Positions 1-4,826 of a stretch of DNA of 64,000 nt are shown piece after piece. Both the position numbers and the translations under genes were made by a program. The stretch is taken from contig NZ_RQWJ01000003.1 of NCBI RefSeq assembly GCF_003934285.1, positions 124,001-188,000 of the forward strand, in the 5' to 3' direction. Each line of letters opens with the position of its first letter. Positions within the stretch are counted from its first letter, which is position 1. This stretch comes from Brevundimonas fluminis. GTDB lineage: Bacteria > Pseudomonadota > Alphaproteobacteria > Caulobacterales > Caulobacteraceae. The notes beneath the pieces were generated by a model, which was not told where the DNA came from, ran no database searches, and saw only the letters and a program-made list of their open reading frames with translations.

Positions 1-40
1 AGCCGCGGCGGTTCGAGGCGGCGGTTCTCAGGTTCCTGCG

Positions 41-1204
41 CTAGGTCTCCGGGATCAGGGCCCCGCCCTCGACCCGGATGAAGCCGGCACGGCCGCGCAA
101 GGGGGCGAAGAGCTCGGGCTCGGTTCCCGTCATGAAGGCCTGCAGTCCGAGCGCCTCGACCTCATCGAACAATGCGGCGCGGCGGGCGGCGTCGAGGTGG
201 GCGGGCGCCTCGTCCAGCAGCAGCAGGGGCGTTCCGGCCCGGGGCTTCGCCGCGTCCGGAATGAGGAGGGAACCGGTCAGTCGGTTGAGCTGGGCCAGGA
301 CCAGATTCAACACGAGCGCCTTCTGCTCGCCGGAGGAGCCCTCGGCGGCGGGGCGATTCTTCTCGCGGTGCAGCGCCGTCAGGTCGGAGCGGTGCGGGCC
401 GAACAGGCTGCGGCCGGCGGCGGCGTCGCGGGCACGGGAGCGCGACAGACCCTCGCGGATCGAGGCGGCGATGGCCTCGGCGTCGGCGCCCTCGGCGGCC
501 ATGGTCTCGGCCTCTCCGGTCAGGCCCAGGTCGGCCTGGGGGAAGGGGCGGTCGCCCCGCGCGTCGATGGCGGTCTGCAGGTCCCTCCGCGCGCCGGCCC
601 GGGCGAGGGCGGCGGCCGCGCCCGACTGGCCCAGCCGGCTCTCCAGAGCGTCCAGCCACAGCGGGTCGGCGGCGCGCCCCTCGGCTCCGTCGACGAGCAG
701 GCGCAGCCGCTCGCGCAGGGCCTTCTCATAGGCGGCGACGTGGGCGGCGTGGTCCGGGTCCGCGGCGAACACCAGACGGTCGAAGAATTTCAGCCGCTCG
801 GCGCGCGCGTCCGAGAACAGCCGATCCTGCTCCGGCGTCGCCCAGACGGGGCGCAGCCAGTCCAGCAGTCGGCCGGGCGGGGCGGTCTCGCCGTCGATGC
901 GCACCGTGCGCCGGGCGCCGCCGGCGGACTGGACGCCCGTCCCCAGTCTCACCTCGTCGCCGTCGACGGTCAGGACCGCCGCCACGGCCCAGGCCCGGCC
1001 CGACCGCTCGCCCGGCTCGCGCCGCCCCATCTCCGGCGCGGTCGCCCCGCGCAGGCCCCGGCCCGGCGTGAACAGGCTCAGCGCCTCCAGCACATTGGTC
1101 TTCCCCGCCCCGTTGGCCCCGTGCAGCACGGTGATCGCGCGGTCGGGTTCCAGCCGCGCGGCGGCGTAGGAGCGGAAGTCGGTGAGGGTGAGGGCGGTGA
1201 TCAA
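41..1204 (-). CDS. recF: DNA replication and repair protein RecF
   Basis: SMC-like ATPase that binds gapped DNA and helps load RecA at stalled forks. The 387-residue product has all family landmarks: Walker A GANGAGKT at about residues 29-36, an ABC-type signature SSGEQ at about 290-294, and Walker B LLLLDE followed by the D-loop APAHLD at about 327-338. Length is normal for RecF. It is the last gene seen in the rpsT-dnaA-dnaN-recF group, all on the minus strand, as in many alphaproteobacteria where gyrB usually follows. The 40 bases to the window edge hold nothing recognisable. The small GIY-YIG gene and its repeats separate recF from dnaN. Confidence 0.97.
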
Positions 1205-1250
1205 GCGCCCGGTTTAGCGGGGCTGGCCTGCTCCCGCCATGCCGACGACG

Positions 1251-1595
1251 CTAGGGTGCCGCAGGGTCGTCTGAGGGAGGTGTCCAATCCTTGGCCTGTC
1301 TGCCATGGCCGGCTTCCAGATCGGCGAAGAGATCTCGCCAGCCGGGGTTGGCGCGTTCGATCAGTTCAAGCTTCCAAGGGCGCTTCCATTCCTTGATGCG
1401 ACGCTCGCGGATGAAGGCGGCTTCGCGTGTCGGATGCTTCTCGAACCAGACCAGCATCGCGACGCCGTGCCGCTTGGTGAAACCCCTGAACGTGCCCTCG
1501 CGATGCTGAAGGGTCCGGACATAGAGTCCGTCAGTTGACCCCGTGTACAGCGTTCCGTTGCGGCGGCTCGCAACGATGTAGGTGAAGAAGGCCAT
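1251..1595 (-). CDS. GIY-YIG domain nuclease, small (YhbQ-like)
   Basis: A 114-residue single-domain GIY-YIG protein. The hallmark is split as TYI near residue 5 and LYTGST near residues 16-21. R and E residues follow in AAFIRERRIKEWKR, typical of the stand-alone UPF0213/YhbQ-like group. It probably cleaves DNA, but substrate and role are unknown. A strong purine-rich ribosome site (GGAGGGGGAG) precedes the ATG at 1595. That site abuts an inverted pair of REP-like palindromes starting only 8 bases upstream. The gene splits the usual dnaN-recF neighbourhood, which suggests insertion together with the repeats. Confidence 0.9.
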   Translation of the reverse strand: MAFFTYIVASRRNGTLYTGSTDGLYVRTLQHREGTFRGFTKRHGVAMLVWFEKHPTREAAFIRERRIKEWKRPWKLELIERANPGWRDLFADLEAGHGRQAKDWTPPSDDPAAP

Positions 1596-1602
1596 CTCCC
1601 CC

Positions 1603-1732
1603 TCCGCTCATCCCGGCGAAAGCCGGGACCCAGTCCTTTGGGCGAACGGTGGCGCGGGGAGACGCGAACCTCAATCCCGGAAAGTCTGCCTCACGAAAGC
1701 ACTGGATCCCGGCTTTCGCCGGGATGAGCGGA
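1603..1732. repeat. Inverted pair of REP-like palindromes (BIME-like)
   Basis: Two 32-nt copies lie in inverted orientation at 1603-1634 and 1701-1732 and differ at one position by eye. Each contains the palindrome CCCGGC-GAAA-GCCGGG, which folds as a six-pair stem with a GAAA loop. The copies are separated by 66 bp. Translated, such elements give the familiar false peptides GESRDP and DPGFRRDE found in many alphaproteobacterial annotations. They fill the space between dnaN and the GIY-YIG gene, and the left copy reaches the ribosome site of that gene. Confidence 0.92.
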
Positions 1733-1743
1733 CTTTCGGGGAA

Positions 1744-2862
1744 TCACACCCGCAGCGGCATCAGCACGTACTGGACGCCCGGGTCGCCCGGATCGAGGAC
1801 CAGCGTCGGCGACGCCGGGTCGGCGAACTTGAAATGGGCGGTCTCGCCGGTGATCTGGCCGGCGACGTCCAGCAGGTAGCGGGCGTTGAAGCCGATCTCG
1901 AAGGGCTCTTCGGAATAGCCGATCTCGACCTCCTCGACGCCCTGGCCGGCCTCCATGTTGCGCACGGTCAGGGTGACGCGGTCGTTGTCGAAGGCCAGCT
2001 TCACGCTGCGGCTCTTCTCGGCCGAGATGGTGGCTACGCGGTCGACGGCCGAGGCGAAGACGGCATTGTCGATGTCGGCCTGCTTGTCGTTCCCCTTGGG
2101 AATGACCCGCATGTAGTCGGGGAAGGCGCCGTCGATGACCTTCGACGTCAGGCTGGCCTGGCCGAACTCGAAGCGGATCTTCTGCGGGCTGACCATGACC
2201 TCGACCGGGCCGGAGCCGTCGTCGAGCAGGCGGCGAACCTGATCCACCGTCTTGCGCGGCACGATGACGCCGGGGCCGCCGGCCGCGCCCTCGGGCGCGG
2301 GGGTCTCGGCTAGGGCCAGACGGTGGCCGTCGGTCGCCACGGCGCGCAGCAGGGGCACGCCGCCCTCGGCCACGGTGTGGAGATACAGGCCGTTCAGATA
2401 GTAGCGCGTCTCTTCGGTCGAGACGGCGAAGCGGGTCTTGTCGATCAGCCGGGCCAGATCCTCCTTGGGCATGGAGAAGCGGGCGCCGCCGGTTTCGGTC
2501 GACATGACGGGGAAGTCGCCGGCCGGCAGGACCGGCAGGTTGAATTTGGACCGCCCGGCCTGGACCACCAGTCGGGGGTCGTCGCCGTCGTAGGACAGGG
2601 AGACCTCGGCGCCGTCCGGCAGCTTGCGGGCGATTTCGTACAGGGTGTGGGCGGGGGCGGTGATCTGGCCCTCGACGTTCACCGTCGCCTCGGCCTCGTC
2701 GACCATCTCCATGTCCAGATCGGTGGCGGCGAACGACAGCTTGTCGCGGCCGGCCGACAGCAGGACGTTGGACAGGATCGGAATGGTGTTGCGGCGCTCG
2801 ACCACGCTCTGCACATGGCCCAGGGCCCGAAGGAGCGCGGATCGTTCGATGGTCAGCTGCAT
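1744..2862 (-). CDS. dnaN: DNA polymerase III beta subunit (sliding clamp)
   Basis: Ring-shaped processivity clamp that tethers the replicative polymerase to DNA. The 372-residue protein has the three-fold repeated clamp architecture. It opens with MQLTIERSALLRALGHVQSVVERRNTIPIL-type sequence typical of DnaN and ends with the conserved YVLMPLRV tail that forms part of the client-binding pocket. Length matches the family. It lies 206 bp downstream of dnaA, but that gap contains an unusual heptamer repeat and two DnaA-box-like sites, so separate or attenuated expression is possible. The ribosome site before 2862 is weak. Confidence 0.98.
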   Translation of the reverse strand: MQLTIERSALLRALGHVQSVVERRNTIPILSNVLLSAGRDKLSFAATDLDMEMVDEAEATVNVEGQITAPAHTLYEIARKLPDGAEVSLSYDGDDPRLVVQAGRSKFNLPVLPAGDFPVMSTETGGARFSMPKEDLARLIDKTRFAVSTEETRYYLNGLYLHTVAEGGVPLLRAVATDGHRLALAETPAPEGAAGGPGVIVPRKTVDQVRRLLDDGSGPVEVMVSPQKIRFEFGQASLTSKVIDGAFPDYMRVIPKGNDKQADIDNAVFASAVDRVATISAEKSRSVKLAFDNDRVTLTVRNMEAGQGVEEVEIGYSEEPFEIGFNARYLLDVAGQITGETAHFKFADPASPTLVLDPGDPGVQYVLMPLRV

Positions 2863-2950
2863 GTCGTCTCGCCCGGGCGACTCACAGGCCGCCTTACACT
2901 GTGGCCCGGAACACTAGCGGATTGGGGATGGGGGGCAAGAAAGGCGGTAG

Positions 2951-3062
2951 GGCTTAGGGCTTGGGGTTCAGGACGCATCGCCGCCGCCCGTGGATAAGCC
3001 GGTGGACAAAGGGGTGACGGCCGCCATCGCGACCTAAGCCCTAAGCCCTAAGCCCTAAGCCC
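2951..3062. repeat. Intergenic element: (CCTAAGC)4 tract, inverted arm and two DnaA-box-like sites
   Basis: The dnaA-dnaN gap holds four perfect tandem copies of CCTAAGC (3033-3060). An opposed arm, GGGCTTAGGGCTT at 2951-2963, can pair with the tract. Between the arms lie two sites resembling DnaA boxes on the minus strand, TTATCCACG (2990-2998) and TTGTCCACC (3001-3009), 11 bp apart. A related sequence occurs at 10421-10536. The arms could form a large hairpin or cruciform. Whether DnaA binds here is inference. Confidence 0.75.
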
Positions 3063-3068
3063 TCGGCC

Positions 3069-4508
3069 TCAGCCGCGCAGCTTGCGGGTCAGCGCCTCGA
3101 CGTCGCGGGCGACCTGGTCGTCCTGCGTCATCAGCTCGCCGACCTTGCGCACGCCGTGCAGGACGGTGGTGTGGTCGCGCCCGCCGAAGCGCCGGCCGAT
3201 GTCGGGATAGGACCGCGTCGTGTGCTGCTTGCACAGATACATGGCGATCTGGCGCGGACGGGCCACGGCGCGGTTGCGGCGGTCGCTGAGCAGGTCCGCC
3301 TGCTTCAGCTGGAAATGTTCGGCGACGGTCTTCTGGATCTCGTCGACGGTGATGCGGCGCTCCGGCCCGCCGCGGAAGGCCGCGCCCAGCAGGCCGCGCA
3401 CCTCGTCGGTGGTCAGGGTCGACAGGCGGGCGCCGGCGGCGGCGGCGACGGTGTTCACCGCGCCCTCCAGCTCGCGCATCGTCCCCGGGGTCTGGTCGAC
3501 CAGATGCTCCAGCACCGCGTCGGGCGCCTCGCCGGAGACGACGCCCAGCCCCGCCAGGGTCTGGAACCGGTTGCGGGCCACGGCGAGCTTCAGCGCACGG
3601 TCGCCCGCCTCGATCGGGCAGGTCAGGCCGGCGGACAGGTGGCTGCGCAGGCGCGGCTCGATCTCGGTCAGGGCCATCGGCGCGCGGTCGGCCGACAGGA
3701 TGACCCGCTTGCCGTCCTCGATCAGCGAGGTGAGCGTGGACAGCAGCTCTTCCTGGGTCGCGGCCTTGTTGCCGACGAACTGGACGTCGTCGATCAGCAG
3801 CATGTCGGCGCCGCGCAGGGCCTCCTTGAAGCCGGCGGTGGTGCGGTCCTGAACCGCACGCATGAAGTTCGACAGGAAGCGCTCGGCGGTCAGATAGATG
3901 ACCTTCGCGTCGGGGCGCAGGCGCTGCGCCTCCCAGGCGATGGCGTTCAGCAGGTGCGTCTTGCCGTAGCCGTAGGGGCCGCAGAAGACGACGGGGTTGA
4001 AATGGCCGTCGGCCCAGGCGGCGATCTGGCGCGCCATGGCCAGGGCGAAGCCGTTGCCCTGGCCCTCGACGAAGCCGTCGAAGGTCAGGCGCTCCTGCAG
4101 ACCGGCGGCGCGCACCGCGCGCGCGCCGTCGGCGACCGGACCCACGGTCGGGGCGGGCATGGCGGGACGGGCGGGGCTCGGGGCGACGGCGGGCGTCGCG
4201 GCGATCACGGACGGGGTGACGGCCGGCATGTCGGCGCGGCAGCGCACCTCGAGGCGGCGCGACAGGCCGTCGAGGCCCAGCCACAGTTCGTTGAGCCGGC
4301 GCAGCGCGTTCTTGCGCACCCAGTCGCGGGCGTAGCCGGTGGGGGTGACCAGCACCAGTTGGCCGGCCCCGTCCAGACGCACGGCCGAGGGGGCGATGTA
4401 GCTGCTGAACGGGCCGTCGCCGATCTCGGCGCGCAGCCGGCCGGCCGCCTCCGCCCAGATCCGGTCCGGATCGGTCATCACGCTACGCGCCGCTTCTGCC
4501 GCCATCAT
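3069..4508 (-). CDS. dnaA: Chromosomal replication initiator protein DnaA
   Basis: AAA+ ATPase that opens oriC and, in Caulobacter relatives, is also a transcription factor for gcrA and podJ. With the start at 4508 the product is 479 residues. An N-terminal helicase-interaction domain (WAEAAGRLRAEIGDGPFSSYI) is followed by a Pro/Ala linker, Walker A GPYGYGKT at about 177-184, Walker B LLIDDVQF at about 237-244, and the DnaA signature RRFGGRDHTTVLHGVRK near the C terminus. The 4508 ATG has an AAGGG ribosome site. An in-frame ATG at 4478, right before the conserved part, is the alternative. A longer frame to 4625 lacks support. The stop lies just after the heptamer repeat. Confidence 0.97.
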   Translation of the reverse strand: MMAAEAARSVMTDPDRIWAEAAGRLRAEIGDGPFSSYIAPSAVRLDGAGQLVLVTPTGYARDWVRKNALRRLNELWLGLDGLSRRLEVRCRADMPAVTPSVIAATPAVAPSPARPAMPAPTVGPVADGARAVRAAGLQERLTFDGFVEGQGNGFALAMARQIAAWADGHFNPVVFCGPYGYGKTHLLNAIAWEAQRLRPDAKVIYLTAERFLSNFMRAVQDRTTAGFKEALRGADMLLIDDVQFVGNKAATQEELLSTLTSLIEDGKRVILSADRAPMALTEIEPRLRSHLSAGLTCPIEAGDRALKLAVARNRFQTLAGLGVVSGEAPDAVLEHLVDQTPGTMRELEGAVNTVAAAAGARLSTLTTDEVRGLLGAAFRGGPERRITVDEIQKTVAEHFQLKQADLLSDRRNRAVARPRQIAMYLCKQHTTRSYPDIGRRFGGRDHTTVLHGVRKVGELMTQDDQVARDVEALTRKLRG

Positions 4509-4696
4509 CGCCACCCTTGGTCTTCGTTCCCCGCCAGCGACGCGCCGGAGGCCTGGGACCGGGCAAGCCTTCCCCGATCCCTGAACCGAAGGTTTCAGGG
4601 GCTGGGCGACCGACCGGACAGACATCTCCCGCCGACGCGAAACGTTCGTCTCGCGCCGTCTTCATCCGTGGTGGGATGGAAGTGCGTCAGGGCTGA

Positions 4697-4738
4697 AAAC
4701 TACTCCCCGGGCAGGGAGCGTCAACGCTGATTCGAATC
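4697..4738 (-). promoter_or_regulatory. Candidate dnaA promoter with a GANTC pair upstream
   Basis: Reading on the minus strand, TTGACG (4719-4724) and TAGTTT (4697-4702) form a sigma-70-like -35/-10 pair with 16-bp spacing. That would place transcription start near 4690 and give a leader of roughly 180 nt before the ATG at 4508. Directly upstream of the -35, at 4729-4738, is the palindrome GATTCGAATC, which contains two adjacent GANTC methylation sites. In Caulobacter crescentus dnaA transcription depends on GANTC methylation near its promoter and the mRNA has a long leader. The assignment here is by analogy and inspection. Confidence 0.45.
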
Positions 4739-4826
4739 CTTCGAAGCAGTTAATTCGCTTGACTCGCGCAAGCCCAAAAACGGCCTTGGAATTTTTCCCT
4801 GCGGCGGTCTGCGGAGAGGCAGAATC
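4729..4826. promoter_or_regulatory. Cluster of four GANTC (CcrM) sites in the rpsT-dnaA gap
   Basis: GANTC occurs at 4729-4733, 4734-4738, 4761-4765 and 4822-4826, four times within 98 bp of a comparatively AT-rich stretch. CcrM methylates the adenine in this motif in Caulobacterales. Hemimethylation after fork passage turns genes on or off. The 435-bp gap between the dnaA start and rpsT otherwise holds the candidate promoter and the rpsT hairpin. No further open reading frame or DnaA-box array was seen in it. Confidence 0.75.

Follow-up and report, generated by a model that had tools for sequence, protein, structure and literature searches.

Short GIY-YIG nuclease genes accompany CGTC-type REPs in several phyla and are candidate movers of these repeats

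What does a small nuclease gene do beside an inverted pair of palindromes, between two replication genes of Brevundimonas fluminis? The window, a stretch of 64,000 nucleotides from this genome, holds such an arrangement close to its beginning (Table 1), between genes that are named dnaN and recF from reading of their translations only. A sequence-only reading had picked out two inverted 32-nt palindromes with GAAA loops, 66 bp apart and one base different, with one copy reaching the start of a stand-alone GIY-YIG nuclease gene and no RAYT present, and all of this held up. Sequence comparison finds a single base difference (C/T) between the two units, a gap of 7 bp separates the gene-proximal unit from the start codon at 1595, the open reading frame has its own profile match, and a Y1_Tnp (PF01797) profile search of the window's own genome (99.99% complete) gave no match at E<=0.01.

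Table 1. Positions of the nuclease gene, the REP pair and their neighbours in the window.
Feature	Position	Strand	Remark
Stand-alone GIY-YIG nuclease gene, 114 aa	1251..1595	-	PF01541, E 6.5e-14
Gene-proximal CGTC-type REP, + strand TCCGCTCATCCCGGC-GAAA-GCCGGGACCCAGT	1603..1634	+	tag end 7 bp from start codon
Gene-distal CGTC-type REP, inverse orientation, ATCCCGGC/GCCGGGAT stem, GAAA loop, CCAG tail	1701..1732	-	
Inter-REP spacer, 66 bp	1635..1700	.	conserved only at REP-adjoining ends among the five pairs of the own genome
Full REP pair (gene-less unit), upstream of the GIY-YIG gene	1603..1732	.	one of five in the genome
GIY-YIG gene 3' side as far as recF	1205..1250	.	REP not recognisable, unlike many relatives
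dnaN (context)	1744..2862	-	name from reading of translation
recF (context)	41..1204	-	name from reading of translation

REPs are common bacterial repeats, and the palindromes of the window are REPs of the CGTC type. The stem, loop and tail of this super-family (8–9 bp with AT first, 4–5 nt and CCA) are met by the gene-distal unit, ATCCCGGC-GAAA-GCCGGGAT-CCAG; the gene-proximal unit carries an A-C mismatch at the first pair of its stem. In the part of the CGTC survey available to us (PMC3733652), the super-family is likewise described with an 8-bp stem starting with AT, a 4-nt loop, a CCA tail, head-to-head dimers with variable spacers and a mostly alphaproteobacterial distribution; unlike it, the window's repeats have the tag CGCTC rather than the unpaired CGTC (or TGTC or CCTC) expected at one end of such a repeat, and they have a possible enzyme partner, of which that part of the survey reports none. 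The exact CGTC tag is found at relatives of the same GIY-YIG gene family. The arms at 1603–1639 and 1696–1732 are 95% complementary, and the pair folds as single-stranded DNA with −52.2 kcal/mol, compared with −24.9 ± 2.6 for shuffled sequences (z −10.4). Reading the repeats as RNA was rejected after an Rfam search of window positions 1–4800, which gave no match even at E<=1.

The window pair is not a chance match, because the 2.64-Mb genome holds five such convergent pairs, which also meet the head-to-head dimer trait of the super-family, with start-to-start distances of 95–99 bp and 111–115 bp from outer stem to outer stem. Their ends read CCGCTCATCCCGGC-GAAA-GCCGGGA[CT]CCAG, with a GAAC loop in one of the ten arms, and their spacers are mostly unconserved. 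Only the window pair adjoins a GIY-YIG gene, which is the sole stand-alone GIY-YIG match of the genome; the other PF01541 match lies inside a 649-aa frame that we read as UvrC. In gene orientation the window order is a REP, the spacer, an inverted REP and then the gene, which the pair therefore does not enclose; many relatives instead have the gene flanked by a REP on either side. Neither reading of the sequence nor a tag-stem-tail scan recognised a REP on the 3' side of the window gene. Where a 3' REP exists, the gene often reads through it, which gives the C-terminus ...DWVPAFAGMSG at L034, L036, L041, L046 and other loci; the end of the window protein, ...DWTPPSDD, may, by inference, be a relic of that REP tail.

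By its PF01541 match and conserved residues the window protein belongs to the GIY-YIG nuclease superfamily, its nuclease activity being inferred. Residues Y6, Y17, G19, R27, H31, E64 and N83 are invariant in 14 of 14 diverse members, and of these we take Y6, Y17, R27, E64 and N83 to be catalytic. The AF2 model (mean pLDDT 85.5) has a predicted fold that matches UPF0213 (1zg2, E 1.2e-4) and, weakly, Slx1 chains (E 0.017 and higher). UPF0213 is also of single-domain size, but differs in sequence (a weak match, E 0.0065), and an NCBIfam search of the window protein gave no named family at E<=0.01.

Beyond the window, the association between REPs and gene is firm. We compared the 150 bp upstream of each gene with the reverse complement of the 150 bp downstream, without reference to any repeat type, at loci L023–L142 from the window's genus and phylum (119 loci used, one dropped for a short flank). 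Flanking inverted repeats with a score of at least 14 were present at 80 of 118 loci (79 of 116 without the duplicate rows L074 and L075) and in none of 453 shifted windows drawn from those loci. A scan for tag, stem, loop and tail at threshold 6 placed a REP within 220 bp at 89 of 117 loci against 41 of 447 control windows, and a correctly oriented REP bracket at 51 of 117 loci against 1 of 447 controls. Thresholds of 5.5, 6 and 6.5 give 91, 89 and 89 of the 117 loci and 61, 41 and 26 of the 447 controls. An earlier tag-stem-tail scan, positive at 56 of 119 loci, was too strict because of the A-C mismatch of the window-type REP; the relaxed scan is partly fitted to the data, because its threshold was loosened after that first attempt. 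Chance clustering of REPs near the gene was rejected on the strength of the shifted-window controls. The tested loci are best matches and mutually related, not a random sample, and shifted windows and shuffles leave this relatedness uncorrected.

At 26 of the 117 loci no REP was found even at threshold 5.5, and 14 of these still have a flanking inverted repeat scoring at least 14. Four loci from other classes of the phylum (L107 and L111–L113) seem to lack both REPs and flanking inverted repeats, and their members are possibly domesticated or act on a different substrate. In subfamily D (for example L053, L057, L061 and L063), inspection by eye found longer-looped REP pairs directly upstream of the gene.

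A replicate in named genomes gave the same picture in several phyla. The genomes were scanned with a beta/gamma-type alignment, and REPs were then sought at the resulting loci with threshold 6, which had been set earlier on other loci; the titles of these loci include Neisseria, Xanthomonas, Pseudomonas, Sphingomonas, Nitrospira, Planctomycetes and others, with many metagenome bins. For the best 80 of 568 relatives, a CGTC REP is no more than 220 bp away from the gene at 76 of 80 loci compared with 18 of 281 control windows, the bracket is present at 45 of 80 compared with 0 of 281, and flanking inverted repeats scoring at least 14 are present at 51 of 77 compared with 2 of 281. Eight plasmid-collection records were inspected out of 31 matches (Azospirillum lipoferum, Neisseria gonorrhoeae, Rhizobium sp. 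CIAT894, Shinella sp. HZN7, Novosphingobium aromaticivorans, Sphingobium sp. TomMM7A, Rhizobium sp. K1/93 and Sinorhizobium meliloti), and tagged palindromes flank the gene on both sides in seven of them, the exception being Rhizobium sp. K1/93, where they are downstream only. Their tags are CGTC, but CCTC in S. meliloti, and the Novosphingobium palindrome has no CCA tail. Four groups that the CGTC survey names, A. lipoferum, Neisseria with dRS3, S. meliloti and N. aromaticivorans, are among those with tagged palindromes on both sides of a gene of this GIY-YIG family. On the A. lipoferum plasmid AZO_p3 (L193), the REP-flanked gene sits between sufB and sufC. Phage matches were distant only, comprising 10 Rhizobium phage records with 37–38% identity.

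Next, gene and repeat were counted across the genus. Relatives of the window protein (E<=1e-5) are present in 103 of 121 genomes, with up to 6 copies per genome among the matches listed, and the REP pattern is found in 104 of 121, with up to 96 matches, while a reversed control pattern was found in none of the 121. REP and gene counts correlate (Spearman 0.57, 121 genomes), which, together with the flanking repeats at most loci examined, contradicts an independent distribution of the two, an outcome that would have refuted the sequence-only reading. Eight of the 103 gene-positive genomes have no REP of the searched pattern, and 9 of the 18 gene-negative genomes have some. In the 51 genomes with a subfamily-A gene the median is 22 REPs with no zeros, and in the remaining 70 it is 5 with 17 zeros. 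The subfamily-A list was picked by eye (best E about 2e-35 or lower, among the matches listed), and its freedom from zeros depends on the exclusion of genome G010, which has zero REPs of the pattern and was left out because its gene is D-type.

The organisation of these repeats is regular. Transcription of 123 REPs from four genomes, two of these in part, gave 34 convergent pairs, 4 gene-sized pairs, 8 double-tagged palindromes and 31 singles, with no pair in a non-convergent orientation among them. Both arms share the same stem and loop in 31 of the 34 convergent pairs, and all four gene-sized pairs enclose a GIY-YIG match.

The REP loop type can be predicted from the protein subfamily. In a phylogeny of 117 proteins (95 columns; 63 of 114 inner branches open), the 81 labelled rows require 8 changes of loop length between 4 and 5 nt, compared with a mean of 19.6 and a minimum of 14 when labels are shuffled. 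Within the genus there are 2 changes against 8.4 shuffled (40 rows); outside it, loop type fits the tree only moderately, with 7 changes against 11.2 (41 rows) and 4 of 300 shuffles as low. Rows lacking a picked hairpin, and two whose loops are 6 nt long, were excluded from the count, L062, L065 and L133 were removed before the test, the picker having chosen non-REP hairpins, and L027 and L044 were kept because 4-nt-loop REPs are visible at both loci; the label shuffles carry no correction for relatedness. Single genomes can hold more than one such combination. Genome G108 has two subfamilies with two REP types (a four-nt loop at L050 and a five-nt loop at L067), and G051 and G026 each have two gene copies with two loop types (GGAC and GGAG), both of which are also present as REP populations. 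In G052 and G087 the gene-adjacent loop is GCAC, not the common loop of the genome.

Do the repeats and the gene come and go as units? We sought the site of one relative, L036, in 22 genomes. The full REP-gene-REP unit is present in 9 genomes, with G052 probably a tenth; 4 genomes have only 13 bp at the site, 2 have a gene-less GAAA-type pair and 3 a gene-less five-nt-loop pair, one of them worn. Two more distant genomes have 60–68 bp with no element, and one genome is unresolved. In the 13-bp genomes the flanks within about 250 bp are 91–96% identical to those of L036, and the whole right-hand piece only 83–85% in three of the four. Occupied and empty orthologous sites, a criterion for transposable elements, are thus met here and also, by eye, in Shinella, where two strains have the block and two relatives lack it. 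About 25 bp on each side, between the element ends and the shared flanks, differ from the empty L036 site, and no target-site duplication or exact junction was readable there.

Comparisons of Sphingobium and Sinorhizobium plasmids gave no clean pre-insertion site. In Sphingobium, filled plasmids stand against TomTYG64, which has a single palindrome tagged at both ends, and TomTYG74, which has a worn one; the TomTYG64 palindrome fits a deletion between 8-bp direct repeats of two REP arms, and no double-tagged palindrome was found in TomTYG72 or TomTYG65. Perfect double-tagged palindromes recur in genomes G087, G051, G009 and G117, and also at L201 (TomTYG64). Such palindromes resemble scars left by the deletion or excision of REP-bounded units. 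The spacers of 20 gene-less pairs reach best alignment scores of up to 0.44, compared with 0.13 in shuffles; the high scores are in part due to conserved ends, and many spacers are dissimilar.

The interval between dnaN and recF (1205–1743 in the window; L163–L192) is hypervariable in the genus. Of the 30 dnaN loci closest to that of the window, five (the window's own included) have a GIY-YIG gene in it, all five with REPs, so that a gene at this site in relatives without repeats, which would have spoken against the sequence-only reading, was not seen among these 30. Intervals of 58–130 bp are found in some species; other loci have other sequence there, and recF was not reached in two. One locus (L175) has a decayed 3' end of the gene with a REP, another (L174) has REP remnants, and the closest (L164, dnaN 99% identical) has an unrelated insert. 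Among the 114 genomes of the genus in which dnaN was matched, the gene follows it downstream within 300 bp in at least 24. The location was rightly placed between dnaN and recF, but it is less special than the description as striking implied, given the unrelated inserts and the many other genomes. The window copy groups with L024 and L025 (SH-aLRT 96), which lie beside dnaN and have the window-like form, with a REP pair upstream and none found downstream. At this hypervariable site the window copy represents a lineage form that the two relatives have in common with it.

The GIY-YIG enzyme is under purifying selection. Among 8 copies at the L036 site dN/dS is 0.01–0.29 in 27 of 28 pairs (one is saturated and several have dS >1), and a stop within the first 85 residues is found in 3 of 117 gene copies (L099, L128 and L139), with two more having a later stop. 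Reading internal stops as decay proved mostly wrong, as members shorter than the query end naturally there; L175 is a real gene remnant.

Starting from the observed association and orientation of REPs and gene, the pairing of subfamily and REP type, unit-wise presence or absence and purifying selection, we propose that a broad family of short (about 90–140 aa) GIY-YIG nucleases would be the dedicated partners of CGTC-type REPs. The basic unit would be REP, gene and inverted REP, about 350–450 bp in all, with the CGTC tag outward and the CCA tail inward, and the abundant gene-less pairs (about 110–125 bp) would be its non-autonomous, MITE-like relatives. Most likely the nuclease would recognise its cognate REP when folded as a hairpin or cruciform and would cleave the ends of the element; units with an inverted REP at either end, whether or not they include the gene, might in this way be excised or copied to intergenic positions. 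The window copy is perhaps semi-domesticated, and might act in trans on the four other pairs of its genome. We consider it probable that these nucleases partner CGTC REPs, cut element ends and mobilise REP-bounded units, in which cutting, its site and movement are inferred. The enzyme as REP mobiliser is the most likely reading, again by inference, there being no evidence of cleavage or transposition. The idea of a GIY-YIG-driven element or a domesticated remnant, raised by the sequence-only reading, is supported by the association and the correlated counts, but the word driven exceeds this evidence. Whether CGTC REPs and GIY-YIG genes form a new class of transposable element, with a single-domain GIY-YIG enzyme as transposase on hairpin ends, we regard as evenly balanced. 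Like MITEs and their autonomous parents, gene-less and gene-bearing units have common ends; unlike in MITEs, each end is a full hairpin, and target-site duplication is not readable.

The nuclease could instead have been domesticated as a host enzyme, with a structure-selective, Slx1-like role in trimming or resolving cruciforms formed by REPs, which would be kept as substrates and not moved. Slx1 is a nuclease of branched DNA, and most of the solved structures ranking next after UPF0213 are chains of Slx1; purifying selection, the few broken copies (a core stop in 3 of 117) and residence at dnaN-recF in the clade of L023, L024 and L025 would also suit a host function. We nevertheless hold it unlikely, since up to 6 copies per genome among the matches listed and REP-bounded presence or absence are the behaviour of a mobile element, and a host enzyme has no need to sit between its own substrates.

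The REPs might also be moved in trans by RAYT/Y1 or other transposases, with the GIY-YIG genes as passengers captured between them. As far as the available part of PMC3733652 goes, CGTC REPs have no dedicated transposase and do not flank transposase genes, and the super-family is suggested either to be on its way to extinction or to rely on transposases of many kinds for its movement, which leaves this possibility open; the same part describes RAYT genes with flanking GTAG REPs in much the same layout. REPtrons, of RAYT/TnpA_REP and GTAG REPs, resemble the present system, according to what was accessible of PMC3733652 and PMC8266576, in having one small nuclease gene with inverted REPs or REP pairs on its two sides, in their many gene-less pairs and in the co-variation of enzyme and REP. 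They differ in having an HUH/Y1 rather than a GIY-YIG enzyme and a GTAG rather than a CGTC tag, and the window's genome has no Y1 gene; the GIY-YIG/REP system works like a REPtron but is none, since tests for an HUH/Y1 enzyme and for a GTAG tag were both negative. Movement in trans seems to us very improbable, as Y1_Tnp, the only family searched, has no match in the own genome and occurs in 4 of 121 genus genomes, against REPs in 104, and as neither the pairing of subfamily with REP type nor recurrence in several phyla would be expected of a passenger.

We give slightly less credence still to free-standing homing endonucleases for which REPs are merely the favoured target or a scar of insertion: homing enzymes of the GIY-YIG type are known (PMC1564403, seen in part) and double-tagged palindromes could be targets or deletion scars, yet homing needs a homologous site while copies occupy several different sites in one genome, and gene-less pairs with matching arms, some with related spacers, behave as units with ends. 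Such endonucleases and the Penelope-like elements, in the same portion of PMC1564403, also place a GIY-YIG nuclease in mobile DNA; they differ in that the palindromic ends here are defined and that no intron or reverse transcriptase was seen beside the genes inspected.

This leaves the GIY-YIG family as the best candidate for the mover of CGTC REPs. The parts are known separately, and their coupling, if the enzyme does act on the repeats, is held to be new because no report of it was found: among the matches listed in the open-licence literature, no paper joins GIY-YIG with REPs, RAYT or dRS3, or a transposase with CGTC REPs since 2013. In the text available of PMC9465073, GIY-YIG and repetitive extragenic palindrome are unconnected, the one in a gene table and the other in a reference; 'palindrom' is absent from that of PMC1564403, and 'transposase' and 'nuclease' from that of PMC12306157. 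A conserved nuclease adjoining CGTC REPs in several phyla is a concrete enzyme-substrate pair to test, so that how these REPs spread becomes directly testable, and it could explain the dRS3 repeats of Neisseria and the REPs of Alphaproteobacteria. If the class is real, it would add GIY-YIG to the short list of DNA-moving chemistries, distinct from the DDE, HUH/Y1, tyrosine, serine and Cas1 enzymes, and its hairpin pairs would populate several phyla, from Neisseria (dRS3) to Planctomycetes.

Two loci hold more complex arrangements. At L157 (G008:C1:757822-758888), a 267-bp REP pair contains more palindromic sequence in its spacer, apparently a nested insertion. At L058 (G046:C60:72946-73254 and 74072-74380), two similar GIY-YIG genes lie about 0.8 kb apart in the same orientation.
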